Source: Polytrichum commune
Taxonomy: Eukaryota; Streptophyta; Polytrichopsida; Polytrichales; Polytrichaceae
NCBI GenBank assembly: GCA_950295325.1
Contig: OX485809.1
Coordinates: forward strand, 26,786,001 to 26,850,000
Direction of reading: 5' to 3'
Length of the DNA: 64,000 bases
Part shown: piece after piece, positions 24,635 to 59,326 of the stretch
How the letters are laid out: each line of letters starts with the position of its first letter
Numbering within the stretch: the first letter of the stretch is position 1
Program-made: the position numbers and the translations under genes
Notes under the pieces: model-generated
What the model was told of the DNA's origin: nothing
Databases searched by the model: none
Seen by the model: only the letters and a program-made list of their open reading frames with translations

Positions 24635-27600
24635 TTAAGAACCTTGTTGTTTCTCTTGTTGCGGCCTCGCGTGAACAGTCACCGGCAATCCATCCTTCAT
24701 GGCCAATGTCAAACTCTGTGCATATGTCGGTGAGAAATTATCTGGTACACTGAATGTGAAGTGCTGTAGCAACCCGGCGACAATGATCTTCATCTGTATC
24801 ATTGCCAACTCTTTGCCAATACAGATGCGCGGACCCGCCTGCACAACATACAGACAATATTTTTTCCTCAAAACATTGAATCAGAGATTCATGTGATCTT
24901 TGTAAGAAATGCACGACTTCCAATTTTTCTCCCACTCTACTGCCAAAGGTTAGTTCATTCTGGAGATTTCTTAACTGACCAAAATCATCTCACACCCATC
25001 CCATGGTAAAAATTGCAGCACATTCAAGAGCTCCCACAGGGACCCTGTGCACTGCCATCTAAGGCACAAATGCATGTGTCCCGTTGCTCATCGCTGCGTT
25101 GAATCCAAGTATGTTATTCCTAGAGGTTGGTCACATGTTCTCTGAGATGGGACCCAGAGTTTAGTCATCTCCTCACACATTATGTAAATTTACAAAATTT
25201 AAAAGTTGGCAAGTTTGTGAGACGTCACGTCGAGGTTACTTATTCGAAAAGCGAAGAAAAGTGGAAGCCCCAAAGCTTTTTTGTAATCTGTTTCAAATCA
25301 GTGCATGGTATCAACACTCCATACCAGTCAAAGCATGTGAGAAATCGAAACCTCTCTGTAATGGTCACTGGTCAAATTAGACTTGGCTCAGGTTACTAAA
25401 TTTCTATCCGACCTAATCGAGACTCCACTCAGCAGTTCTTGTAAAATTGACAATAAGTTAATGTGCTTCCCAATCTGCTCATACATTCTCTAGTTTCAAA
25501 TTGGACCTGGCAAACTGTAAATATGTAGATTGCCCTGATTTCTGAAGCAATTCAAGAGTGCACAAGGTGGATGAGTGTTGCAGAATAAAATCCCTTCCTG
25601 CATCTAACAGACATTCTCGTGTCCTCAGAAAGAAACCCATTCGAGGGGCCCAGATGCTTAACGGTAACGAATGTAAGTTAGCACACTCACAAAAGGAATA
25701 AGAAGGAAAAACAAGATGCTCATCATGGACTACGAAAAGACTGTCGTTGATCCAGGGTTTGCGATACATCAGACTTAACAAATTCAAGTGTGTTCTTGAA
25801 TGCCAGAGAGAAACAACCGCTACTACATGTATGCGTATATTCTTAAGGGAGAAATGATTCAGTCTAGTCTTAACATTCGAAAGCTCCTAAACGCCTGAGA
25901 GTAGAAGAGGAGGAGAAAGAAATATGACCACACATGGAAGACGACGAATTTGTAGTTGGCTTGGATTTACCCGAAGAGTGCACACGGTGGTCCAATTTTC
26001 TAAATGCTTCAGTGACTAGACTAGTCATAATTTGAGAGAAATTGACAAAGAAATACACTCACATGGAAGATGACGAATTTGTAGTTAGTTGGCTTAGAGT
26101 TACCCTGGTTTCGACAGACAATAAGAGTGCACATGTGCTTCGATTGTCTATCTGCTCCAGTAACCAGACTCATCATGGTGTGAGAGAAACCGATGAAGAA
26201 ATGATGCACTCACATGGAAGACGGCGAATTTGTAGGAGCTATCTGGCACGAAGACGCCATCGGTGAGCCATCGCTGAGGCCGAAACTCCAGACAATCATC
26301 GCCCCAAATGGACGGCATACGCCCCATGGCGTAGGCGCTGTAGGCCACTTTGACATTCGGGTTGATGCGAGAACCATCGGGCCACACATCATCACCCGCC
26401 GCTTCCTTGATGTCCATGGGCACCGGAGGATAAAGACGCATCGATTCGGTGATGGCAGCATGCAAGTAGTGCAGTTGCTTCAGCTCCTCGAACGAGAGAC
26501 TAGTGGGTTGCTTCGGACTGAGGTTAGGTTGTTGTTGTTGTTGCCCCCGAGATTGGAGAACAGTGAGCAATTCTTGGTAGATTGCATCCTCCACATGGGG
26601 GTTACGGGAGAGGAGCCAGAAGAACCAAGACAGTCCCGAAGATGATGTATCCCTTCCTGCCAGAACAAAACTGATCACGATGTCACGTAAAAACACATCC
26701 GAATACACTTGCCTCCCAAATTGCTGCTGCTCATTCGAGCTTCCTTCCGCAACAAATCCCACCTCAACTTCCTGGGGATAATCCTCTGGAGCAAGGCCCA
26801 TGAACCGTGACAAAAGGTCAAGTTTCTCAACCCCCTGGTCACCGGAATCAATTAACCCTCGGCCCTGCATTTGCTTCCTGCGAGTCTGAATCACATACAT
26901 TGCAAATTCATCGACGTCAGCCACAGCTTCCCGCAACAACTTCTCAGATCCGACGTCAAGCTTGTGCATCGCCTTCCACAGAAACGGGTAACTGAAGAAT
27001 CGTTCGCTTGTCAACGAGGTCGCTGCATCGAACGCATGTGCAATTTTCACTGCAGGTAGCGAAGGAGCCAAACACGCTGGGTCTACCCCGAACCCAAGCT
27101 GGCAAATAGTGTCGAAGGTAAACCTGGTGAGGAGGTCTTGCAAATCAATCGACACTCCAGTGGAGCAGAATCTGGTGAGAAGTGGGATCAAGCGTCCGTG
27201 AAGCTCCTCCATAACGGAGCCAGCCATGAAGCTCCGCAGTGAGCGTGTGGTAAATTCGCGGTTTGCCACTTGCCTTTGTAATTTCCACATCGAACCGTCT
27301 GCGTTAAAGATCCCGGAGCCCAGGAAGTCCCCCATTGTCTCATGCACATCTTGGCCTTTTGGGTAATTCTCGAAGTTTGTCTTGAGCATGTACTCCACGT
27401 TTACAGGGTCTGCTGTGATCCAAAACTCTGTACTCATGGGTCTGCTCATCCTCATCGTCATGTTGGGGGATTTCTCGATCATTCTCGTCACCCAGTCATG
27501 AAATTTGTCCTTGTTACATATAGTTTCCGGGAAGCAGCCCAGCACGGGGTATGATTTCGGTCCTGGATTCTTGCCATACTTCGGATGGTGGTACCATGCC

Positions 27601-27695
27601 AAGTATGCAAGCGTGACGGCAACTATGAGCATGGAAGTTGAAACACTTGGAGATAGCCATTGGAGAAACTGTTGGGGTGAAATGAAATTCCCCAT
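24635..27695 (-). CDS. Cytochrome P450, CYP86 clan, CYP94-like; 2 exons, 561 aa
   Basis: Exon 1 runs 27695 to 26214 (494 codons) and exon 2 runs 24838 to 24635 (67 aa plus stop). The intron is GTGAGT...GCAG, phase 0. A hydrophobic anchor spans residues about 20-35, then the proline hinge NPGPKSYP. The I-helix motif AGRDTSS is at 346-352, ExxR is E417-SMR420, and the PERF-type motif is FRPQRW (471-476). The heme loop FHAGPRICIG has axial Cys500 and is split exactly by the intron between His494 and Ala495. FDTICQLGFGVDPACL and GKELAMIQMK match plant fatty-acid omega-hydroxylase-type P450s; CYP94 members oxidise fatty acids or jasmonoyl-isoleucine. The substrate here is not deducible. The start is ATG 27695; an upstream in-frame TTG is not a plausible eukaryotic start. 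All catalytic motifs are intact. Confidence 0.9.
25934..26216 (-). repeat. Tandem copies of the P450 exon-1 end and splice donor
   Basis: On the minus strand the sequence encoding YKF(A/V)(V/I)FH plus the following intron start occurs three times, with His codons at 26214-26216, 26063-26065 and 25934-25936. Unit lengths are 151 and 129 bp. The first two copies have the donor GTGAGT; the third has GTGTGG. Units two and three lie in the intron. Splicing at a downstream donor would retain sequence with a stop codon. Confidence 0.9.
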
Positions 27696-28854
27696 ATTCA
27701 AGATGTTCAGGATTGCCAGCGAGAATTGCCGGGAAAATACTGGTGCATGCTTGCATCTCCTTCGGAAACCTGTGAAAATTCACAAGCTCAATCTTGTTGG
27801 AAATGGCGCGGAAATTTCGTTTCTCAGTTTCAAACTAAGATTGCAGCAGTTGTAGAGAATTCAAGAAACTTGGTGACTGGAACCGTCTGGTTACATTGAA
27901 TTTATAAATTTCTGCTAACCTCCCATACGTCTTTGAAAGTGACACAATTAATTATACAAGACAGGACCTCAATGAGCATGAGAACTACATGACAGAGCGA
28001 CAGACTCATGATCGAATGCCTTAGAAGGCCTGTGAAGATCAAGAGGCCTAATCCTGTTGGAAAATGAAGCGGATAGGATGTGAATTTCCTGGAAATGGAA
28101 TGCCGATTTAGCAATTACAGAGATCTCAGAAGTTGGAGGATGGGGCACCTATGGAACGATGCTGTTGTAAGAAAGCGATTCTCTCCTAAACCATAATCTC
28201 AAAAGAAGAGGAAGAGAAAGAGGAGGAAGAAGAAAGCAGTTGTAGAGATTTGGAATCACCTGAAAAGACATTCAATCTAGCTACACGGACATTGAGAATT
28301 TCGAAATTGGTACTCTTGAGAATTAGAAACTCAAACGTGTTGAGGCTGCTTGCCTGTAGAGCTGCTCCAAACTACCACCGAGAACCACCGAGGAAGGATA
28401 CCAACTAGCCCTTCACAAAAGCCATACCCAGAAAACGGAGCTCCACAAAATATACCTCCCTCGAAACGGGCTCACATGGGTTTATCTTTTAGATGGGGTG
28501 GTTGGTTGATTTATCTCTGTAGGAATCACTTCTTAGGGTTTAGTGGTGATTTTAATGTCTTGATTACAACAAAACCTCTGAATTTTTTTGTGCAACCTCT
28601 GAAATCTTCACAAAACCCTTCAATGGCCTTATAAACTATAATGAGCCAATTGGGCCATGATGAGACAATCTGTACTGATGGGAACGTGCATTGGGAACTT
28701 AGTTCACGAGCAAATCTCCGTGAAAATGACATCATTGACAATGTTTAGAACAACAGGAAGGTCATCAAGATAGAATACCACATTGTTTCAAACACATTGG
28801 TTGATTCATATAAGCTACAAGGGCACATACTGCTGCACAAAATAAAATTTAGGC
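27696..28854 (-). promoter_or_regulatory. Upstream region of the P450 gene
   Basis: Non-coding DNA before the P450 start. Two imperfect copies of a block containing AATCYTGTTGGAAAATG with AAGCGGA/GGCGCGGA lie about 240 bp apart (near 27,790 and 28,045). They may be leader duplications. No core promoter element is certain. Confidence 0.4.
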
Positions 28855-45269: not shown

Positions 45270-45354
45270 TTAATGTGTATTAACATACTTTTATGTTGAT
45301 GTTCAAATTCTGCATTACATTGGATTGTTGAGGAAAGACTTGAAGGGGAAGGCG
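45270..45354 (+). pseudogene. Left part of a transposase-like exon cut by the 11-kb MULE
   Basis: An open frame starting after TAA near 45270 reads VQILHYIGLLRKDLK and then GKA in the target duplication. The same frame resumes on the far side of the 11-kb element at 56430 as GKAVVLFDDEDRALCDG. The fragment thus belongs to the gene annotated at 56430-59326. Confidence 0.75.
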
Positions 45355-45369
45355 GAGGGAAGCTAAGAC

Positions 45370-45436
45370 ATGAGCGATGAGCAGTGAACAATGAGCAGTG
45401 AGCGGTAACACGTGAGCAGTGAGCAATAACACGTGA
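45370..45436. repeat. Left subterminal heptamer array (RTGAGCR)
   Basis: Imperfect head-to-tail copies of a 7-bp unit, ATGAGCG/ATGAGCA/GTGAGCA/GTGAGCG, interrupted by AACACGT. The array is inverted relative to the array at the other end of the element. Confidence 0.88.
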
Positions 45437-45684
45437 TCGATGGTGCCAAATATAGTAACTAGGCACGGTTTTAGGGTACATATTCTAATATTGGCATTTT
45501 TTCTTTGCAATTTAAGAATTATAAAGTACTCACATTTTGATTGAACAAGAGTGAAGGGAGCACATTATCATAGATATTTAAAAAAACCATCAGTCCTTTG
45601 CTGATTTTTATTATAAAAATCCACACTAATACATGTCACTTACCAAAATTCTCAAACATGCGGTTGAATACAACACTTGGAATA

Positions 45685-48600
45685 TTACTCACATTCTACA
45701 ACACCTGCAAGTTCAAGGAGTTGCATAACCTCATTGTAGGAGTATGTTGGAGCGTGAATGAACTTGTCACTACTGTAATCCACCTTACACAAAAATCTAA
45801 ACACATAGTAAAGATGTTTGCAATACACCCATTTCCATTTCTTTCCCAAAGATTGAGATGACATTTTCGTGTAGTCAGGGCATGTACAATGTGGCATGTC
45901 AGCAATTGTGACACAATATTTGATATTTTCCTTGGAGACGATGTTGAGTAGGACTCCAAATTCTGGATATGGAATGGCAGTTACTCCAACCACATAGTAA
46001 CCGTCCATGAGTCCAGCGCTCTCCCATTTATTTTTGTGATCTGCCGTTGGTGCTCCTAGATTGCGGCGCACCGTCTTTCCAAACCTGGAAGTTGGATGGG
46101 CATCTGGTTTTTGTGGTACACGAAAATCCGTCCGAGGAATCGGGAGCGTCGCAATTGTGGAAAGCCTATGGCGAGGAGAGAGAACCTCCCTTTGTTGTAA
46201 TTGGAATCCAGCATCTTCGAGCGCCAATACCTCCTGCCTTGAGAGATTGGTACCTATCTTTACAGGCCATGTGTTGGGTACTATAGGCCAGTCTAACACG
46301 TATTTCTTCTTGCTACCACTTACACAACATTTGATGTCGCCAGGGCAAAACCAAAACTCGTACTCCACATTGTTGGTGGAGCGGTATTCTTTTTTCAATC
46401 CCTTGTATGTAGGAACAGGGGTGCCATGTTTGTAAGTTCCAACTTTGGCATTGCACAAAGACCCTGTATTGGCTTGCATCGCCCAACATCTTTTGGCAGA
46501 GTTGGATGGCAATCTTGCAATATACCAATGAGAAGAAGGGCAATCAATCTCTAACACCGATGTGGTATGTGCCACACCATACTCTGCAAAATTCAAAAAT
46601 TCCTCTATGCATGCCCTTTTAACCCTAGTGTTAGGACGAGGAATCGAGTAGTTCACTTTGTCGGGTCGATGTGAGTCGCAATCACCTGGCGGCAGATCAA
46701 GTTTTCGTTTGGTAGATCCAAACAGCTCAGACCCCTCCAAAGCACAATCCCTTGTATTGAGATCTTCAGCCCCCGGATAGGATTTCATGGCATTTGCTAG
46801 TAGCTTTGGATCTCCACACCGGGTAGCAGCCTTCAACTTCAAGGACGCAGAATCAGGGCCTTTACCAGTAAAACCTCCTCTCAACCACGATCTATAATTT
46901 GCAATCTGTATGAATGCACGGATCAAATCGTCCACTGTTGCTTCATAAAGATAAGTCATCTTGTTTCCAGACTGTTGGAGCCATTTGTTGTGCATTGTCT
47001 CTGCAAGGTTACACGTCGGCATTTCTGCACGTTCATCTATATTCATATCCTGCAAACATTACACAAATTATAGTAGATTGTATATATCATGGATATTCAA
47101 AATTAAATAATATTGGAAAAACATAGTAATGATGCACTTACAAGAATCATATGACCACCCCATTGCCTATAACGGAAGTGCCAAAACCCCAACCACTCGG
47201 AGAGCCCGTGAATATCTTCTTCCGTGGCAGCTCCAGATGACAACCACCATGAACAAATAACATGATATTTGGTTTCGGCTTCATCCATTATTTTCGCGTC
47301 TTTGTAATCTTTGCATAGTTGTTTGTGCTGAAACTGCAAAGATGCCTTGATATATTTTTGCGTCACCTTATCCAAGTTTTGTGACCAATGGAAAAGACAA
47401 GTGCGCTCACGACCCACCATTGGCAGACTTGGGTCACCTCCACCATATATCTTCCTGACCGCATTCCAATTTGCTTGAGCACTGTCCGCCATAAAACCTT
47501 TGAAATTCACGGTTAACACTCCATTCTCCGCCATAACAATATTCAAGTTTTCCCATAAAAGAGTTTGAGCTGCACCATCTTCAGATCGCATGTCACAACA
47601 CGCAATGGTCAACACCTTACAATACTTGCTATCGTACACATGACACGCAAGGGTGGTCCAGTCCTTCAGACGTTTAACGTGGTCAAACATTATCCATGAA
47701 TTCTCCATATCTCCTCCCTCCTGCATACGCATAACAAGATCCACACCACTCCCCGGAAGATCTACTGACATTTTGAAGACAAATACTTTGTCATTGGACT
47801 GTCCGGGGAACCTACTAGCATGAACGTACTTAAAGCTCGAATGGTCTTTGAGCGCCATGATACTATCCATCGTACCCATTCCACTACGAACAAATCGCTT
47901 TGAGCCGGATACAAAATTCCGACAATTTGGAGAGGCAAGAGTACTAAATTTATCCATGGCGACCTCCAAAGATGAACCTATCAAGTGATGTCTTTCACTG
48001 TCTGATGGAAATTTTAGGAGGTAGTCTGCCAAAAATTGTTTGCTCGCTGCCATTACTATAGCGGAGTTTCTGGCAGTGGGTGTTTTTGTGACCTCATTGG
48101 CAACATATTGGTATGCAATGTCCAAAGATTCACGGCATGTACCATTGGACACAAGGTGGTCATACACGCCTAGATGAATACAAGCCCTGGCCATTTCAGA
48201 AGATGTGGAGTGCACATATATTATGCGAGCATGGCATAAAGCTATGCATATAGGTGTGGAATGACAAACCTTACATTCCAATTTGGACCTCTCAGGGGCA
48301 ATAATACCCATAGAGAATGGGGTAGGAGTTGATCCGGCCCATTCGGTGTTGTTGCGCTCGCCTGCATTGCGATGCATATAATCACAAAAATCATTAGAGC
48401 ATTGGAGATGACCTGCACAAGTAGAACGTCTGAAGGTTAATCCAAAATGATTTTGGATATTTGTGGTTTTGGTGGTGCACCAAGGGTGTCCGTCGCACAT
48501 CTTATCCATGCCATCCATCGAACGACCATAGGCGCTTGGAACTCCAAATGGCACAGGGGGCAATACAAACAAAATGTCACCGTCAAAAGAGGAGGGCAAA

Positions 48601-49016
48601 TACTTAACATCTCGCACCTCTATGTTGTCAAAATCAATGGACGCAAAATCTGACTTGGATCTTTTCCTAGACTTTGTTTGTTTCAATGCGTCGACAATAT
48701 TCATACCCACTAATGAAGAAAAATTGTGTAGCGGGGGACGTTGTGATACTGAACCATGGTGTGCCACCTTCACATACAGAGGACTGTAAGGAGATTTGGG
48801 AAGATCCATAGGGGGTTTTGAAGGGATGGAATCTTTACTTCTAAATGGAAATGGTGATGTATTAGAAAGGTCAACAGCAGCACAAATGTCATCTTCAGAA
48901 TCCGACAACACTATTACACTATCATCAGTAGGTTCCAATTTAACAGTGACGATACTTGGAACTTGAACAGTTGATGTACCAGATTCATTTGTCAAAATGA
49001 CAGTAGAAGCTTGCAT
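45685..49016 (-). CDS. MULE transposase with zinc finger and SWIM domain, 2 exons, 1,079 aa
   Basis: Exon 1 is 49016 to 47142 (625 codons) and exon 2 is 47049 to 45685 (454 aa plus stop). The intron is GTAAGTG...TTGCAG, phase 0. The N-terminus is acidic (VIVLSDSEDD) with a basic patch (KSRKRSKS). A Cys/His cluster at about 180-214 (HPWC...STCAGHLQC...FCDYMH) looks like a FLYWCH/WRKY-GCM1-type finger. The MULE catalytic core shows FDHVKRLKDW (Asp445), GFMADSAQANW (Asp514 region begins at Asp511) and CLFHWSQNLDK. A SWIM finger CTCPDY...WVYCKH has Cys1013, Cys1015, Cys1035 and His1037. The frame continues upstream to ATG 49277 but for one TAG at 49065-49067, so the ancestral protein may have been about 87 residues longer. 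It is expected to bind the element ends and drive transposition. Confidence 0.92.
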
Positions 49017-49705
49017 CTGAGAATCAGAGAGTCCAATAACTCTATATGAACTAGGTCCTAAACTCTACATAGAACCACCCTCACTTCTATTCTTTTGCAT
49101 CAAGATTGTTCTAGACACCTCTCCACCTACATAGTATATCTCTTGCTCGACGTACATGGTTCCTACTTGGAGGTTGAATCTCAAACCAAGCAAATCTTCT
49201 AGAACAACTACACAACCATCACTTTCAAGAGGCAAAATGAAGGGTATAAAGGATCCATGAGCACGGATGGTAGCCATGAAGAATGTGTGGATGCAATGTA
49301 CATCATACTATGGAAAACATGACCTATTTGTATTGTGTCTTGGCAATCTTAATCCGTGGACTTGAAAAATATACTATATGAATGTCTATTGAAAGAAATG
49401 GTGCACATGGGCTGGTAGGTGTAAAGAAGGTAATGCCAGTTGTTGATTATATTGGGTAGACAATGACCAATGTAAGGAAGATATTTTAATAGCATATCTT
49501 TAGCTTTCAAATCAAATTCAATATCTTAATGTTTGGGTTCTAAAGATGGTGGTGGTGGGCCTTTAATAATTCCTAAATCCCAAAGAAGAAGAAGACATAA
49601 TGAGTGATGATCTGTTTCAAACTTCTTACAGCTTCAAAGTGAGGTAGCGCTTTTAGGTTATGCAAAAAGCGAATGTAGAGAATTGATAGATTTTTAAGGT
49701 TGCAA
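49017..49705. promoter_or_regulatory. Divergent intergenic region between transposase and ParB-methyltransferase
   Basis: The two element genes are transcribed away from each other from this stretch. Its left third (49065-49277) encodes, on the minus strand, an upstream extension of the transposase frame (HGSFIPFILPLESDGCVVVL), separated by a TAG that could be a mutated CAG. The remaining 430 bp are AT-rich and presumably hold both promoters. Confidence 0.5.
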
Positions 49706-50469
49706 ATGCAAGAACGGGATTATGCGACACCAACAAAGCGGAAGAGAAAGAGGGGTGGTTTTAAGTACTCCACCAAAAAAACATTGGCGAGATCAAGAAT
49801 GGGGAAAAGATTGAGTAGGGTCGATGAGGGAGAGGCATTTTTGACATTGAGAACTATATTGTTTAAGCCCGGAAACGAAGATACTTACACCGATGGGCTC
49901 GGCTCAACACCTTACATTGGAGGCGAACCCAATACAGAAAGAATTACGGACACCCAAGAATCTTCTAGAGCCGAGGATGAAGGGGAGACTCAATATACAA
50001 GAGAAGTAAGACTCAATATTCATTTCTCACTTTGTAAATTCAATTGCAAGTTTTATACACATGTTGAAAATACAATTGATATGAAGGTAAATACATATAT
50101 TTTTTGTGGGCAAATATATGTTAAAATTTTGAAATTTGAGATTTTGGGTAATACCTAAGTGAAGTCGTTCTTGAAATGGATGTCATTGAGGTGAAGGTTA
50201 TGTAGTTGACCATATACATTGTTACATTTACGGTTTAGAACTCAAATAAGTCATAGTTGACGTGTGTATCCTTGAGGGTGAAGGTAAACATCGAGGACAA
50301 GGAAGAAGAAGACAACTTGAATGAAGATGAAGAAGAAGAGGACGGTATAAAAGATGAACTAAGAGGAGGCTTGATAGATGAAGCAAGAGGAAGGATGGAA
50401 ATCGATGGAGGAGGCGACTTCACCGCCGCCCAAAAATCTCAGGCAAGCATTTTGAAAGTGAACTTGAAT

Positions 50470-51545
50470 GCTTGAAATGTTTCTTAAAGATTGAGGACAC
50501 GGATTTCATCACTTCCTCCTTACCCTTGGTTTCATAAGGTGCTCAGAATGAGACATTAACCCACAAAATAAAGAAATAATGAAGCAAGAAAACCCTAAAA
50601 TGAGTCTCGGTTCCGAGATTAGGTTTTTTGAAATTTCAGGGTTTTCTTCTTGCCTCTTCAATTCTTGCTTTTGTGTTTCTTTTCGCACTTCTTTGTGTTC
50701 ATTGCTTATGTCTTGCTTTGATATACATGCTTAGAAGTTATTATGTAGTTTGCTTGATGGATTTGTAGTGTATTCAAAAATTTCAATGAAGAAGCTTCAT
50801 TGTTGAAATTGAAGCTTGAAATGGTTCTATAAGGTTAAGAACACGGATTTGATCACCTCCATCCCACCCTAGGTTTCATAAGGTTATGAAAATTAGGCAT
50901 TTGTGACCACAAAAGCAAGAATTGAAGAGGCAAGAAGAAAACCCTAAAATCTCAAAAAAATGAGTCTCGGTTCCAAGACTAGGTTTTTTGAAATTTCTGG
51001 GTTTTCTTCTTGCTCTTCAATTCTTGCTTTTGTCTTTCTTTTTGCACTTGTTTGGGTTCATTGCTTGTGTCTTGCCTTGATAGGTATGCTTACAAGTTAT
51101 TGATAAGTATGCTTGATGGGTTAGTATGTGGTTTCAAAAATTTCAACGAAGAAGCTTCAAGCTTGAAATGAATCTATAAGTTTGAGGTCACGGATTTCAT
51201 GACCTCCCGCTCACCCTTGGTTTGGTAAGGTGCTGAAAATGGGGACATTGATGTGTACAAAAAGAAGAAATGAAGAAGTTAGAAAAAACTTCAAAATTCC
51301 GAAAAAATGAGTCTCGGTTCCAAGATTTGTTTTTTTGAAATTTCTAGGTTTTTTTCTTGCCTCTTCAATTCTTGCTTTTGTCTTTCTTTTGCACTTGTTT
51401 GGGTTTATTGCTTGTGTCTTGCTTTAATGTGTACACTTGGAGGTTGTTAGATAGTTTGTTTGTTGTTTTTGTGGTGTATCCTAGAATTTTAATGAAAAAT
51501 CTTCAAGGTTGAAATTGTTGCTTTAAATGGTTCTAAGAGGTTGTT
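50470..51545. repeat. Intronic tandem repeat, about 345 bp, 3 copies, each able to form a hairpin
   Basis: The phrase (A/T)CACGGATTT(C/G)AT starts at 50497, 50841 and 51188, giving periods of 344 and 347. Each unit contains ATGAGTCTCGGTTCC followed by GGGTTTTCTTCTTGC(CTC)TTC. In copy 2 that is complementary to GAAGAGGCAAGAAGAAAACC upstream, forming a stem of more than 25 bp with a loop of about 45 bp. It lies in an intron of the methyltransferase gene. Confidence 0.88.
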
Positions 51546-54195
51546 GGTTTAGTTTTTTTTTCTTTGAATAGTTAATTTTTATGTAATTTGATTGAATGTT
51601 ATTTGTGGTTTCATAGTTATGTGTTAATTTGATTTCATTTGTTATTTGAATTTCAGGATGGTGGAGATGAGGATGGCGGTCCCCCACTGCCCAATGATTT
51701 GTTAAATGTGGAAGAGACTATGTCTCATATGTGAGATTTACAAAATACAAACTTCAATTCTTTGATTGGAGGACTTCGTATGAAGCCGTTCTCAAAGTCA
51801 AGAGTTTCAATCCTTCTTTGTCGGTTAATACCGTTGCCTATTGTGAGGCCAATATTGGAAATCGATGTTCAGCTTTTGGAGAATGAATTTGTGAATGGTT
51901 ATAGGGAGGGTGATAGGGTACTGTATGTATCTCCATATGATAAAGATAGAAATACTATGGATATTCGGGACGAAGACACTTGGGGAGAACATTGGCAATC
52001 TTCCAATAATTTTTTTGAGGAAATCCTTAAGAATGATAAGAATTATGAAAGGTTTTGTGGTAAAATGTTCTTTGTTTGGGAGGGTAACCATCGGGTAACA
52101 GCTTGGCGCCGCCATATCGATAAGGTCCATGGAGAAGATAAAGAGTGGCATTACTCCGTTGATTGTATAGTACTTGAATCAACCGGTTTGGTGGCTCTTC
52201 TTCTAAATGCTATGCATGATATGAACATGTATGTTTCATGTTCCGATTTTTTTTTTTTTTTAAATTTATAATTATCAAATTATAAAATTCATTGATCTTT
52301 TTTTTGTCATCTCTCTTAGGTCTACGGAATCAAATCATGTCAAAATAAATTTGGTTCACAAACTCCATCGTGTCCAAAGTTTTGGAATCAGGAAGTTAGA
52401 GGAATTTAAAGACCTTCTTACCCCTGATCAATATTCCAAGTGTTTGAAGAAAGGTGGAAAGGGAACTTGGTATACCCTTACTTTGGAAGTCTTTACTCAA
52501 TTTCTTTACAAGGTGGATATTCTAATTCATGCTAAGCTTTGTTATTGAATATATTTTTGCTAAAGGATCTTAAACTAATTCTTAGTTTTTGGTTGTGTAG
52601 CGTAAAATAGCATTTATGACCGAAGAGGCATCTCGTAAATACAATGAGAAAACTCCACTTCAATCAAGGACATGAAAAGGTATTTGGGATGTCATGCAGA
52701 ATGCAACAAACAAAGCAGTATCATCAATTCATGGAAAAAATTTCGAAAAACTTCTCGCTGTCGCAAATCCAGCCAATGGCTTCGATTTCTTGGAGGAAGT
52801 AAGTCATTATGTTTTTTTATGTAGCATTCATTTCGGTATTCTATATGAAAGATTTTTATTATTTTCACCTTCCATTTCGCATATCAATAAGCATTTTGGA
52901 GATCGCTCTGAGCCTACCATGACCCTAGAGAAACTGCAAATGATTGCAACTACTCCAGTGAATTCGGTGTTCAAAATCAAATGGTTAAGGTGGTGGAATT
53001 CTAGCGACATGTCCCGTGAATCTCTACGCTTTCTATTGGGAGATATCAAAGAAAAAGAACTTGAGAAATAGTTGATTAAAGCATCATTTTGGGCCCAAAT
53101 TATTCCATATTCTTAAATATCTAAGTGTTTTCATTTCAATTTTTGAATTTTTTATGATTTATTCAATGGTCGTGATGCATATGTGTCATTTTACAGTTGG
53201 AAGATGGTTTTGTGAAACAATTTGAGGATATGAAAAAAGAAATGAATGTGAAGATTATTTGGAATGTACATATATTTATGCCTTTTGAGTACATTGAAAA
53301 GTGGCGTATTATGCTTTGGACAAAAACATTCCGACATTTTTTTGGTGGCATGAGTGCATTTACAAAATCTACTCTACTCGGTAAAATTTTTGGAGGAGGC
53401 ATTGCTATCAAACGAGTGGTATTCAGGTAATTTATTTTTTCTTTCTCTCATAGCTTCAATTCGTTCATTGCATACTTGAAGTTTGTCATGACGTAATCGA
53501 TTCACTAACTTCAATCAAATGGTTATTTTGTCTCAAAAGTACATAAAAAACGAGCTATTGGCTTCAAGCGCCATCTCCCTTGGCTCCATTCCGAGTTGTT
53601 TCTCTTCATGGGCTGACAAATCTAGTGACCTTTGCATTTTTACGGCAACCCAGATAAGAGTTTGGGCTTATGCGACTTTGCAGTCTTGTCGATGGTTTAT
53701 TGAGTGTCCTCTTACGTTTTGTCCAAGTGAGGAGGAGGAGCTCAGGAAACAGTCATGTCCAATAGAGTTGCCTCCTGATGATATTGACATGATGAACAAC
53801 GAGGATGTGTGTGTAGTGAAAGTAATCAAACCGAAGGAAAAAACTAAACGTAAGCGTGGCTCAAAGGTAGATGAGGTTAATCCAACACCTTCATCTCAAA
53901 CCGGTGTTATGGCACACAATCCTAGTCCTTCAACACCTACACCTAGCACTCAAGATAATGATGGACCTAAGTTTTCTCCCATTTCAAGATCACTACGATT
54001 TCAACATGTGTCAAAAACCATTGTCAGTGGTGCTTCACCTTCTGAGGTAATTTGTTCAGTGATGTTGGAGAAGATTTCAATTCAAACATTGATGGAGAAT
54101 GGTGGTCATGAGCATCCGTTAATGTTGAAAACATTTGAATTTGTGACTAAGGTCAGTATACTCAACATTGAACTTATTTTTATTTTATGATATAT

Positions 54196-54470
54196 CACTA
54201 GTAGAAAACATGGTAAAAAAGAACCGCATTCGTTTTTCCATTGCGGTTCTTTTGACCACTAAACGATTGCAGATTTTTCTTTTTTGTTTTACGACTACAA
54301 TTTTAAGACCTTTCCAGCGATATATTAAAAGCCCCCAAATTCCTAAAAATTTAGTTGGTAAACCAAAAAAGAAAAATCTGCAGTCGTTTAATGACTGCAG
54401 ATCAGGGTGGTCAAAAGAACCGCAATGGACAAACGACTGCGGTTCTTTTTAACCATGTTTTCTACTAGTG
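54196..54470. mobile_element. CACTA-type MITE, 275 bp, TSD TAT
   Basis: The left end is CACTAGTAGAAAACATGGT and the right end is its inverse, with TIRs of about 20 bp, flanked by TAT at 54193-54195 and 54471-54473. Inside are further inverted pairs (AGAACCGCA.../...TGCGGTTCT and CTGCAGTCGTTTAATGACTGCAG). CACTA ends and a 3-bp duplication define En/Spm-type elements. It lies in the intron between the exon ending at 54151 and the exon encoding methyltransferase motif IV. Confidence 0.95.
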
Positions 54471-55853
54471 TATGGTGTTGATGTTGCAACATGTTTTGGA
54501 CTTGAGTGTAATATTGTTTTTTGGTTTTTTTTTTGTAGGTGGGTTCCGGACGCAATAGGAGGGTTTATTCAGAGGATTGTAGTTTTGGAGGTTTTGACCT
54601 TATTATTGCAGATTTGCCAGAAGGTTTGCTTGTACCTAACGTTTCATCTCCTCCACATATAATCCCAGCTTGGAACGACCACAAGAGAAAGAACATTGAG
54701 GCTCTATTTGAATTTGCATGTGCATATGTCACCGATGATGGCCCCTTGCTTTTGTTTGTTCCTGAGAAGAAAGATGTCAGAGAGGATGTAAGGACATTCG
54801 CAGCCTCCTATGATTTTGTATTGCGAAAAGATTGGTGGGGCTTCAACGAGTTGCCTTTGTGTTATCCACTTGATACATCATTGACGGTATACATTAAACT
54901 CTATTATTTATTACTTTGAATTCTACTTTTTCATTGTATTGCAATGTTCTCATCAATTTTGTAATTGAATCCCCCGCTGAAGGTTTCTCGTGGTTTATAG
55001 ACTCGTCGTTTCCACATCATGTTGTTTCTTCGTTCTACTCCCAAGTCGGAGTTTGTTTTTCAAAAAAAGAACGCAAATACTGAGGTGGATGTGGAGGCCT
55101 TGGATGTGTTCTTCAATCTCACATTGTCAAGCACTCAACTCATGAACGGAAAAGTGCCATGGAGAGGTGGTAGGGAGAAAGACTCGGAATCAATGCAAAT
55201 CTTAATAGAGGCTTTAACAACTCCCGCATCGATTGTCCTCGATGCTTATGCATCTACAGGTTGGTTTATCTCTTACTCAAAAGACCTATTATATCATCTC
55301 CCAATGTGTTTTAATGAAATCATTGTAGTGTTGTCAGTGGCTTGTGCAAATTAACTGACATTTCAACATTTCATTGGCAGGTGCATCTATTCATGCTTGC
55401 AGAAATAGTGGCCGCCATCTAGTGGCATATGAGGAAGATTTTGCATTGTTTGATGTCATTTTATCCCCATTAAGTGATCCACCACCAACTGCTACTGTAG
55501 GTGGATTTATGCCATATAATGCCTCCATCGATTCCGATGAAGAGCATGTTAAGAAGGTTGCGAGAAAAAATCGATTGAGTACGTAAGTTTTCAATTTCTC
55601 CATATTGTTTGTTAATTTGGCCCTCCAATGTCTGATATGTGTGCACTAGAAGTCTAACACTTATGATGTCAATTTGCAGAAAAAAGAAAAACATGACTTC
55701 ATCTCCGAATATGGGTTTGCAATATATGCAGAAAATGTTGCTCAGATCATGGCAAGATCAGTGACGCCAACTCCTCGCCGTATATCTACACGAATTGCTC
55801 GTAACCCGTATGTAGATGATGAGGCGATTCAATGCAATGATCTAAGTGATTAA

Positions 55854-56364
55854 GCTAAACTAGTTTAAGGACATTTAGGTAGTTGTCAATACCATCCACT
55901 ATGTGTTTGATTGGATTGGATATGATTGGATTAGATATTACTTGGTGGATGTGTGACAAAGTTTGGATTCATCATTTGAAATTACCACAATTAGTGGACA
56001 TTGAATTGTGTGAGCAATTTCCTCTTATTCCTAAACCCTATATCCTAAAACTTAATTACCTCTATCAATCCATTTCTCAAACTTACATGAATTTTAGAAA
56101 TACAGTTTAGAGCAATACTTGGAAGGTGCTTGCATTGTTATTACAATTGGATGTTGCATCCAACAACAACATTAAAAATATTTTCAAACCCTCATGCCAA
56201 GCTTGCAGTTGTTGAATTTAAAAGTAGAGTTAGGTATTCATGAGGATAATTACATTTTTTGACTATCCATTAATTTTATTATAGAAAAAATATTATTATT
56301 TATGCCAAAATACCACGGATATAGGGTACTAGTGCGTGTATTTCCAAAAATCTTTCCTCACCTA
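55854..56364. other. Non-coding right arm of the MULE
   Basis: AT-rich DNA between the methyltransferase stop and the right heptamer array. No reading frame of interest. Confidence 0.5.
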
Positions 56365-56414
56365 CCGTTCACAAGTTACTGCTCATCGCTCACCGCTCAT
56401 TGCTCACTGCTCAC
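56365..56414. repeat. Right subterminal heptamer array (YGCTCAY)
   Basis: Consecutive units TGCTCAT, CGCTCAC, CGCTCAT, TGCTCAC, TGCTCAC: five clean heptamers preceded by GTTCACAAGTTAC. It is the inverted counterpart of the left array, 15 bp from the element end. Confidence 0.92.
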
Positions 56415-56429
56415 ATGATTGCACTCCCC

Positions 56430-59326
56430 GGGAAGGCGGTTGTCCTCTTTGATGATGAGGATCGTGCTTTGTGTGATGGATTGACTTGCAACACAAGTCC
56501 GTTGGATTGTGTTGACAATAACATCCTAGGTGATGAGGATGTTGGAGTTATTATCATGACAATGTTATTTCACGGTATTGGAAGAATACTCTATACCGTT
56601 GGCCCCTTTCACTCACCAAATTTGAAGGACATACATTGGCGGAAATATTGTTGGTCCATCATAATGCGACCCACGAAGATGAGAGTCATCGGCGTTTACT
56701 TGGAAAACGCCAATACAACACTGTGAGGATATGTGCACCTCGGGCACCTAAGAAAAAAACTTGGGGAGCCACTGAGGAGCATGCTCGGATGTTATCAACG
56801 GTGGATTGTTGTTCAGAGCATTGTTGCCAGGTATTTCCAAAGCCTTTGTTGATTAGTATTCGGGAACACCATTTCGCCTTGCCATTCAATGCTCAGGAGC
56901 TCATAGCCCTATCGATGTTCCAAACGATCTAGAAACAAGAGCACAATGATAGGGAAACGGTTATTGTGGAAGGGAGATCAATTTGCACTCGTGCATGAAT
57001 GAACATCTATATGATATCAAGGGCATAATATAATAGGAACAAGGCCGAAAGCTCGATGGGGGTTAGATCTCAAGATCTTAGAAATACAGGAACTAAAAAA
57101 ACCAAGGGTGAATACAGTGCAGACACGAGCCACCCTCGGAGTATTGGTTGAGGGTAGGGCGGATGCCATGCCCCATGACTCGGACTCTTCCAACCAGTGA
57201 AAAGATAGGTACGGAGATGCTCCCTGTGGGAACAACTTGGTCCAACTTGTTGCAAGAAGTGAACGAAGTGGACAGAGACCTAGGGTACACGCCTATCTCT
57301 ATGTTGAGTTTTAGCCGCCTACATCGACAACATTTCAAGCAGTAGGTTATAAAGAGCCCTGGTGACAACTTCTCGCGTTGTGGAACTTACGCAACTTTCA
57401 AGGATTTGTTGCGAATACACACAAAGAACACAATTGGTCCCTTGGCCATCTCAAAGGCTAGCCTTCGTCATCTGACATTGCAAGAGTCTCATAGAAACAT
57501 TTACTATAAAGATAGGATTTTATCAAAGTATTCTCCCAATGAGGTGTTTTGTATCATCCATGACAAAATGGATTATTGGAAAACAACGCTTCATGTTTTC
57601 GCGCACAAAAACAAATGTGTTGGCAAATACGACCGTTTCCCAATATCCATTGCGGGGATGATTGCACATGGTCACTGTGATGTGAATTATGCGCATTATG
57701 TTTTGATATGTACCCATCTGATGCCAACTTCACAATCACCTCCATTATGAAGTTGTTTTGTCAATTTGAGGTACAACATGTCTACTCTAGTTGACACATT
57801 CCTATTTCTTCCATAGGTAACCCTTTACACGATGCACTGGTGGTTGGTGTAGAGGAGTGTTCAGGACTACTTCCCTTGCCACCGCCCGAAATTATTCCAC
57901 CTACAGGTTTGTCACCCCTCTTGCTTGTTCAAATGGACAATTGTGCGAAGGACAACAAATCAAAATACAACATGTTGTTTTGGTATGCTCTGAGTGCAAA
58001 GGAAATCTTTCATGAAGTCCGGGTGTCATTCCTTATTGTTAGACATACACATGAGGATGTGGATGCAATGTTCAGGAGGTTTGGACAAAGGCTGAAGATT
58101 GAGGATTGCCATACACTCCTAGACCTCATGGCATCGTTCATGGCTACTAGGAATCCCACTATAGTCCTGTCTTTGATCCACGAGGTTGCTGATTTCAAGG
58201 AATGGGTGAAGGGATACTACAATGAGTTTGGTCAAGATCAACTTATTGGGCATTCCAAGGCGCACCAATTCTATTTTTATGTAGACCCTCAAGGAGTGCC
58301 ATTGATGCAATACAAAGTGTTTTGTACAATTTTAAGTTGGGCACCTGAAGGAGGAATTGCTTTTTGGAATGTGGACCCTATCACAAAGAAAATCATGTTC
58401 CCTACAAGTTAGTGGGTGTCTTGTTTGTATTGCTTTGGAAGTGCACTAGGAAATACATGGTGTGAAGTATGTGGCCCACGGGTGATCACCCGTGGGCAGT
58501 TAGTCCATGGTATTGCTTTGAGCTCTTGTATGTTTGTTTTTGTAGGGTATCCCCGTCCTATTCCAAAAAGGGAGATGAAAGATTTTGTGCATATAAAGCT
58601 TGGGGTGAAAGGTTTTATTAAATATCGGAAGGATACTGCAGATCAAGATAGTTCGGGTCAATATATGGAGTCCATTGCGCCAACAATTTTATATTGGGAG
58701 AATGTGCTTGTGGCTATGGATCATCCTTCACCCCCAACTCCATGTGAGCTTAGCGAGCCTTTATGGCCTGCTACACAGTTCTCCATTCCACCAACCCTAC
58801 ATGTGGATAATGTGCATTTACTTGAGGAAAACATCACTGACTATGCTTACGTGGGGCCGGCTAGTTCTCGACATGCTGAGACCTTCCGTCCCGGCGCACA
58901 TATACGGGTCGGCCAATATGTCTTCTACATCCTAGTGAGGATTGTCCTAATCCAGTGTGGATGGGACAAGTGATTTTTGAGCCGAATTTGACACATCTCA
59001 GTCCTCATGCTCGTTCCATTGAGATTGTATATTATGTACCAGTCCTTGGCCAAAGGAATAAGAAGACCTTAGATGAACGTTATGAGAAATGGGACACGGA
59101 AAAATCTTTTAGATGGATGAGGCTCAAGGAATATGCACCAGCTCATCAATCTCTAGATGATGTTGTGGCATCATGGGCAAGATAGAGGAATGCGTCCGAT
59201 GATAATGTAGTCATCCCAACGAGACAAATACTTTTTGCAAAGGATTATTTAGATCAATACACTAGAGGTGAGAAAATGACCGGTGGAGATCAATTTGAGG
59301 ATGGGGTACCAACAAAAGGCCTCTAG
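56430..59326 (+). pseudogene. RNase-H-like transposase-derived gene (DUF7869-like), broken
   Basis: This is the continuation of the exon cut at 45354. The frame GKAVVLFDDEDRALCDG shifts near 56,600 into FEGHTLAEILLVHHNATHED. Then come a Cys-rich block CCSEHCCQVFPKP and stops before a block with VFCIIHDKMDYWKTTLHVFA. The best-preserved block, 57840-58395, has LLLVQMDNCAKDNKSKYNML and FLIVRHTHEDVDAMFRRFGQ, matching the DxC..NK and HTHEDVD signatures of the plant DUF7869 family, thought to be an RNase-H-fold transposase. A GT/AG intron (about 58394-58546) follows. The C-terminal part shows ETFRPGAHIRVGQYVFY and, after a frameshift, PNPVWMGQVIFEPNLTHLSP. Multiple stops and shifts show inactivity. 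The family name is from memory. Confidence 0.7.
58474..58497. repeat. Perfect 24-bp copy of the dispersed palindrome, in an intron
   Basis: GCCCACGGGTGA is followed immediately by its exact reverse complement. It lies within the GT/AG intron of the transposase-derived gene and is the most symmetric copy seen. Confidence 0.95.

Follow-up and report, generated by a model that had tools for sequence, protein, structure and literature searches.

Transposons that carry a gene for a ParB-like and DNA methyltransferase protein have been described in algae. In the Sola1 transposon of Ectocarpus, a ParB-like part and an N4C/N6A methyltransferase are joined in one protein encoded opposite the transposase, and ParB-methyltransferase cargo is also cited for green and red algal transposons (PMC12477816). 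The VANC protein of the Arabidopsis VANDAL elements, which are Mutator-like elements (MULEs), has as its targets non-coding tandem repeats that diverge rapidly (PMC10398659). ParB-methyltransferase fusions occur in bacteria and phages, Bce_0392 being named as one (PMC5512222), and in bdelloid rotifers, which are eukaryotes, the bacterial-type N6_N4 methyltransferase N4CMT has a link to transposons (PMC8885841). Here we describe an 11,075-bp element of the land plant Polytrichum commune in which a transposase gene stands opposite an accessory gene with a predicted methyltransferase domain. It occupies positions 45355-56429 of a 64,000-nucleotide stretch of DNA (the window, to which coordinates refer unless a locus is named), itself a contig piece of a 408-Mb assembly with its bulk in seven contigs. 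GRAS genes, with 70 exon matches in this assembly against none in 14 prokaryote controls, point to a land plant as host; the self-incompatibility family PF05938 has 40 matches, a result that does not tell the land-plant groups apart.

As in the algal class, the accessory gene lies inside the element and opposite the transposase, and ParB-like and methyltransferase domains appear to share one protein. The carriers differ as far as their descriptions can be compared: that of Ectocarpus is a Sola1 element of 21.5 kb in a brown alga, whereas the present one is MULE-like, makes 9-10-bp duplications and resides in a land plant.

Pairing of the two genes across the genome

A first-pass annotation, made from the sequence of the window alone, had proposed a complete MULE carrying a ParB-methyltransferase gene and called for a search for further copies with both genes. 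In the genome, at least 150 places were scored for the ParB-like exon, at least 150 for a methyltransferase exon and at least 78 for transposase exon 1, all lower bounds; the first look gave 1348, 1206 and 2532 candidates, respectively. When the places from two ParB-like queries are pooled, 58 of the 78 scored transposase copies face a ParB-like exon head-to-head at up to 9 kb, against 0.11 at random placement (at most 1). The median distance to the partner is 4.9 kb, and 61 of the 78 are paired within 20 kb; among copies of the window type, the spacing of the two genes varies. The second of these queries, drawn from an element whose transposase falls in an 81%-identical group, recovered a set of places of its own; with this unselected list alone, 50 of 78 transposase copies are paired where 0.17 (at most 3) are expected. 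The two parts of the accessory gene also keep company: the scored matches yield 30 pairs of a ParB-like with a methyltransferase exon no more than 8 kb apart, where 1.0 would arise by chance. These represent 29 distinct ParB-like places, and in 28 the methyltransferase exon is downstream on the same strand. The head-to-head pairing is far above random, and the second gene is therefore no chance neighbour of the transposase. These results support the conclusion that the transposon family itself carries a methyltransferase-domain gene on the strand opposite the transposase, and does so in numerous copies across several subfamilies. Transposase copies always lacking the methyltransferase gene, the outcome named beforehand as fatal to the proposal, were not what the genome contained.

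Bacterial contamination of the locus was ruled out by the introns and by the at least 150 scored places for each of two accessory exons. Nearly all of these places are in the seven large contigs.

The ratio of nonsynonymous to synonymous substitution rates (dN/dS) was calculated for pairs with dS of 0.1-1, matches containing stops being excluded; the pairs are not independent. The median is 0.17 for the ParB-like exon (below 0.5 in 19 of 20 pairs) and 0.21 for the methyltransferase exon Eh (66 of 69). For transposase fragments compared with the window copy, values of 0.18, 0.23 and 0.08 were obtained in three cases, and in two the ratio was not computable. The accessory gene is under purifying selection. 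MULEs do capture genes, and the host gene fragments within Pack-MULEs are such captures; the second gene could thus have been a passenger acquired by chance. We regard this as highly improbable, since a multi-exon gene is retained in subfamilies whose ParB-like exons fall to 39% identity, dN/dS is near 0.2 in two exons and the geometry of the gene pair is constant. The Pack-MULE passenger was rejected on the pairing and selection results.

Layout and domains of the accessory gene

The divergent multi-exon gene seen at first pass is borne out, with at least nine exons on the plus strand, opposite the transposase. They were placed from open reading frames, comparison of copies and profiles. The order begins with a basic candidate N-terminal exon (49679-50005, KRKRKR), whose start is not fixed and which has a weak match at the same place in locus L093 (E 0.010, 33 residues). 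The ParB-like exon follows at 51657-52228 (VRP..DVQLLENEF..GYREGDR and EGNHRVTAW), and the exon at 52320-52512 continues the ParB-like region. Linker exons are at 52601-52798, 53197-53427 and 53540-54151, with a further candidate near 52893-53065 whose 3' border is uncertain. Three methyltransferase exons come next: Eg at 54539-54886, with DLPEG at the position of motif IV (54611-54625); Eh at 55001-55259, running PWRGGREK...VLDAYAST; and Ei at 55381-55583, holding the end of the motif that binds S-adenosylmethionine (SAM), GASIHACRNSGRHLVAYEED. The last exon, at 55680-55853, ends in a stop at 55851-55853. One intron of the gene contains a 275-bp CACTA-type miniature element (54196-54470) with CACTAGTAGAAAA ends and a TAT duplication; a form of about 334 bp is present in five copies (L041, L042, L044, L045, L046), and copies L040 and L043 gave no match to it.

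Judged by profile comparison, the C-terminus of the accessory protein is a beta-class N6/N4 methyltransferase domain, in agreement with the amino-methyltransferase fold noted at first pass. PF01555 matches the window copy at E 4.4e-5, where its 24 bits fall slightly short of the curated cut-off of 26.7, and it matches six of seven family members, the best at 1.5e-6. The PDB search returned DpnA at 1.7e-5 and CcrM at 0.029, the CcrM alignment beginning at motif IV and covering the rest of the domain, and matches to PHROG DNA methyltransferases reach 3.6e-8. Aligned by hhalign with the corresponding domain of three ParB-methyltransferases from bacteria or phages (L097, L099 and L100; one from a small contig of the same assembly, two from viral contigs), the plant domain gave 94% and E 1e-7 over nearly the whole length. 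Motif IV comes first and the SAM motif last, which we take to be the beta-class order. These three fusions and Bce_0392 share with the plant protein the order of a ParB or ParB-like part followed by a beta-class methyltransferase; they differ in that the plant gene is interrupted by introns and its linkers are long, and the DPPY kept in L097, L099 and L100 is absent from the plant proteins. Three small contigs of the assembly, C10, C12 and C23 (L096-L098), look bacterial and are probably contamination or associated bacteria. They contain a tandem ParB gene pair and two ParB-methyltransferases: a fusion of 443 aa and a protein of 711 aa in which an intein-like insert is seen by eye.

None of 34 loci, the majority closely related to the window copy, has the catalytic motif [DNS]PP[YFW]. 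At motif IV, 16 of the 34 have DLPEG; L069 has DIPEN, L095 DIPEG, L094 DVPEN and L093 QFPDG. In bdelloid N4CMT, the change of SPPY to APPA (S and Y to A) abolishes addition of N4-methylcytosine (PMC8885841). That protein is described as the product of a host gene with intact SPPY acting on transposons, whereas here the gene is owned by the transposon and the motif is lost. Since the catalytic motif is degenerate in all 34 loci, the accessory domain is probably not an ordinary methylase. It is conceivable that the protein is nevertheless active, methylating adenine at N6 or cytosine at N4 and so marking the DNA of its own element, as has been suggested for algal elements. Such an enzyme is favoured by the conservation of the region that binds SAM (LDAYASTGASIHA, with an acidic residue further on), by retention of the first D in motif IV at 28 of 34 loci, and by the ParB-like plus methyltransferase gene that stands opposite a transposase in Ectocarpus (PMC12477816); with the motif missing throughout and the bdelloid substitution inactivating, we think it quite unlikely. 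Of the prokaryote-type DNA-modification module proposed at first pass, the methyltransferase-domain cargo of a whole family has held, and the loss of the catalytic motif speaks against a role in DNA modification.

The ParB identity of the upstream region is likely but unproven, and it draws on motif register and weak matches. A motif of VRP, D...L..EF..GYR.GDR and GNH..AW is conserved across 44 non-redundant copies, GNHR is present in 40 of 51 loci, and a loose alignment sets GNHR on the G-x-R-R of ParB. The profile searches that had been recommended upheld methyltransferase homology but gave no statistical confirmation of a ParB/Srx-like domain, the scores against ParB lying within those of shuffled controls. 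PF02195 had no match in scans of seven and twelve members, nor at any family copy genome-wide. The PHROG family phrog_1033, 'ParB-like partition protein', matches weakly in two of seven members (0.17) and in four of twelve (best 0.048), and phrog_9020, of no known function, matches one member better, at 0.0074. The PDB scans of the same seven and then twelve members gave unrelated best matches, no relative of the ParB-like alignment was found in viral contigs, and a single-sequence AlphaFold model of the window exon has a predicted local distance difference test score of 41.8.

The ParB-like exon is preceded by tandem arrays. In the window, an array with a unit of about 347 bp occupies 50431-51542, in the 5' non-coding part of the gene. 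Under the criteria used (period at least 20, score at least 150), 25 of 33 loci have arrays within the 1.5 kb that precede the ParB-like exon (856 bp upstream in L070), and one of 33 has an array after it. That sole downstream array is a 26-bp tandem repeat at L070 529-692. Control pieces are the fairer comparison, because the downstream stretch is partly exonic; arrays were present in two of 16 pieces from elsewhere in the genome and in three of 34 taken from the remainder of the window. By blastn the units fall into eight clusters, with unrelated units between subfamilies; the window-type unit measures 338-361 bp.

The element, its ends and its transposase

Homology between the window element and other copies begins at 45355 and ends at 56429, the element running GAGGGAAGC...CACTCCCC. 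It is flanked by a perfect 9-bp duplication, GGGAAGGCG, at 45346-45354 and 56430-56438, and the base G that follows the duplication is common to both borders (10 bp), as the first-pass annotation had read them. Other copies share the left end GAGGGAAGCTAA and the right end CACTCCCC, and each is bordered by its own target-site duplication; left ends resembling that of the window element were seen in five other copies. Both ends were read in eight copies including the window's. Seven have a perfect duplication of 9-10 bp (in the other copies CCTGGGCGA, GTGGTGGCT, CTTCTGAAAG, GTTGTGACCA, TGGGGACATG and AGTAGGATC), and one has an imperfect duplication, aagagggtc/gagagggtc, matching at eight of 9 bp. 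In a ninth copy, C1:59.16M, the end-pattern search of both-end sequence did not locate the right end; at further loci only right ends were inspected. Just inside the borders, a GAGCAGT-type heptamer array on the plus strand (45371-45439) and its inverted counterpart on the minus strand (56366-56413) were confirmed as inverted copies of each other. The element thus has terminal inverted repeats, in the form of these arrays, and duplications of 9-10 bp; the range for MULE target-site duplications is 8-11 bp, and terminal inverted repeats are absent from some MULE families (PMC6446971).

The transposase is encoded by two open exons on the minus strand, 47142-49064 and 45685-47049, separated by a GT-AG intron of 92 bp (47050-47141). 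Exon 1 shows the order D...D...CxxH (GFMADSAQANWNAV...CLFHW), which we take to be the MULE pattern. In exon 2, a C-terminal C-x-C...C-x-H resembles the SWIM zinc finger (PF04434) that is present in many MULE transposases. PF04434 itself scores 10.2 bits against a cut-off of 19.6 (E 0.58, model positions 1-34 of 38), and PF19713 (DUF6208) scores better, at E 0.006, though likewise below cut-off. PF10551, the MULE catalytic domain, had no match at E 10 to exon 1 or to its core (the core query once carried one wrong residue); the window locus is absent among the PF10551 places of the genome (150 scored of 271 candidates), and no solved structure matched exon 1. We use the name MULE-like because PF10551 gave no match and SWIM only a sub-threshold one. 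The two exons of the SWIM/MULE transposase proposed at first pass stand, but its class does not rest on a profile match: membership of the MULEs would follow from the duplication length and the SWIM-like finger, which makes the element MULE-like and not a proven MULE.

Some related elements do exceed the SWIM cut-off. Among 57 SWIM places at or above it, three are head-to-head with a ParB-like exon within 20 kb (0.29 at random, at most 3), and three with one of 29 hand-picked methyltransferase places, a comparison that has no control. Together these are four distinct SWIM places facing a related ParB-like or methyltransferase exon, the fourth coming only from the hand-picked, uncontrolled list. 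They bear on whether the transposase might come from another superfamily that also makes 9-bp duplications, as the silence of PF10551, the absence of the locus from its scored places and the better score of DUF6208 would allow. Such an origin appears decidedly unlikely, in view of the duplications of 9-10 bp, the SWIM-like finger at its expected place, the D...D...CxxH order and these four head-to-head places.

The window element is a decayed copy, complete in structure as the first-pass annotation had it but not in coding. A TGA at 51732-51734 in the ParB-like exon is private to it, being a sense codon in all 12 other copies at 75% identity or more, and so is a second, at 52673-52675 in a linker exon (sense in 8 of 8 at the same identity). 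Its transposase exon-1 frame has 653 codons. Several other copies have a frame that extends further upstream; in the six nearest it has 734-736 codons in four (two of them without a stop in the match), and 635 and 576 in two. Other copies are open in the accessory and transposase exons examined, some with stops of their own.

At L050, L051, L053 and L060, a similar right end and methyltransferase exon (Eg, 87-89%) stand beside more distant transposase fragments (exon 1 at 58-61% in L051, L053 and L060; exon 2 at 41% in L050), a picture that would fit a re-pairing of ends and cargo. At 26148-27779, elsewhere in the window, the minus strand holds a long open frame that by eye resembles a plant cytochrome P450.

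Proposed role of the accessory gene

The second gene may help the element to find or shield its own DNA in the host genome. We tentatively favour, with slightly less than even confidence, the reading that this is an abundant land-plant family of MULE-like elements whose travelling accessory protein binds the element's own DNA with the help of a probably non-methylating domain and thereby aids excision or escape from silencing. The accessory protein would bind the DNA of its own element, the ParB-like part reading the tandem array of the subfamily or the terminal heptamers. The beta-class domain would bind SAM, probably without methylating, and would serve as a DNA-gripping or partner-binding part. 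An element so bound would escape host silencing, or would be cut more readily by the transposase. The mode of action would be like that of VANC, reached with different protein parts. VANC too is described as an element-encoded accessory protein of elements with rapidly diverging non-coding tandem repeats; its anti-silencing role is reported, whereas here it is proposed from sequence, and the likeness is one of description. To our knowledge, VANC has no relation to methyltransferases.

A more specific form of this proposal seems to us somewhat unlikely. In it, self-recognition would have evolved independently of VANDAL and VANC, through a phage-type ParB and a non-catalytic methyltransferase reader that co-evolves with the array of its subfamily and shields the element from silencing. 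Unlikely by a clearer measure is that the gene aids transposition or maintenance of the element directly, for instance by binding its ends, and has nothing to do with silencing. The head-to-head pairing and the selection fit any accessory role, and the repeated heptamers at the ends are candidate binding sites, but the location of the arrays at the accessory gene and their change between subfamilies would be left unexplained.

Several results weigh against the favoured reading of a protein that binds its own element. The hhalign score against bacterial ParB, 14.5, is one that shuffled controls also reach (they average 12.3 and go up to 24.3, and the reversed profile scores 14.1). After the insert was taken out and the gaps were loosened, seven of 80 shuffles equalled the ParB score. 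An upstream array was not seen at eight of the 33 loci, and among the 25 that have one, 11 are closely related to the window copy. Among the transposase copies, 20 of 78 are without a scored partner within 9 kb and 17 within 20 kb; the partnerless copies include a 794-codon class, and at one of them, C3:58.79M, a methyltransferase exon lies at a distance of 6.2 kb. In exon Eg the median dN/dS is 0.48, with 27 of 52 pairs below 0.5. An altered catalytic motif can also keep or change its activity.

The first-pass annotation knew of no plant MULE with such cargo. In the open-licence literature of PMC, as far as titles and the starts of abstracts go, no ParB-methyltransferase cargo of a MULE or of a land plant was found, PMC12477816 being the sole transposon case, but the kind of cargo is already known from the algal transposons described there. 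What sets the present variant apart is its carrier, its host group and its degenerate catalytic site. If the favoured reading holds, bacterial-style ParB-methyltransferase cargo would extend beyond algal transposons to a very abundant family of a land plant, and the catalytic loss would separate the binding of an element's own DNA from its methylation. Each protein subfamily with its matching array unit would then offer a direct test of self-specific anti-silencing, as studied in VANDAL elements.

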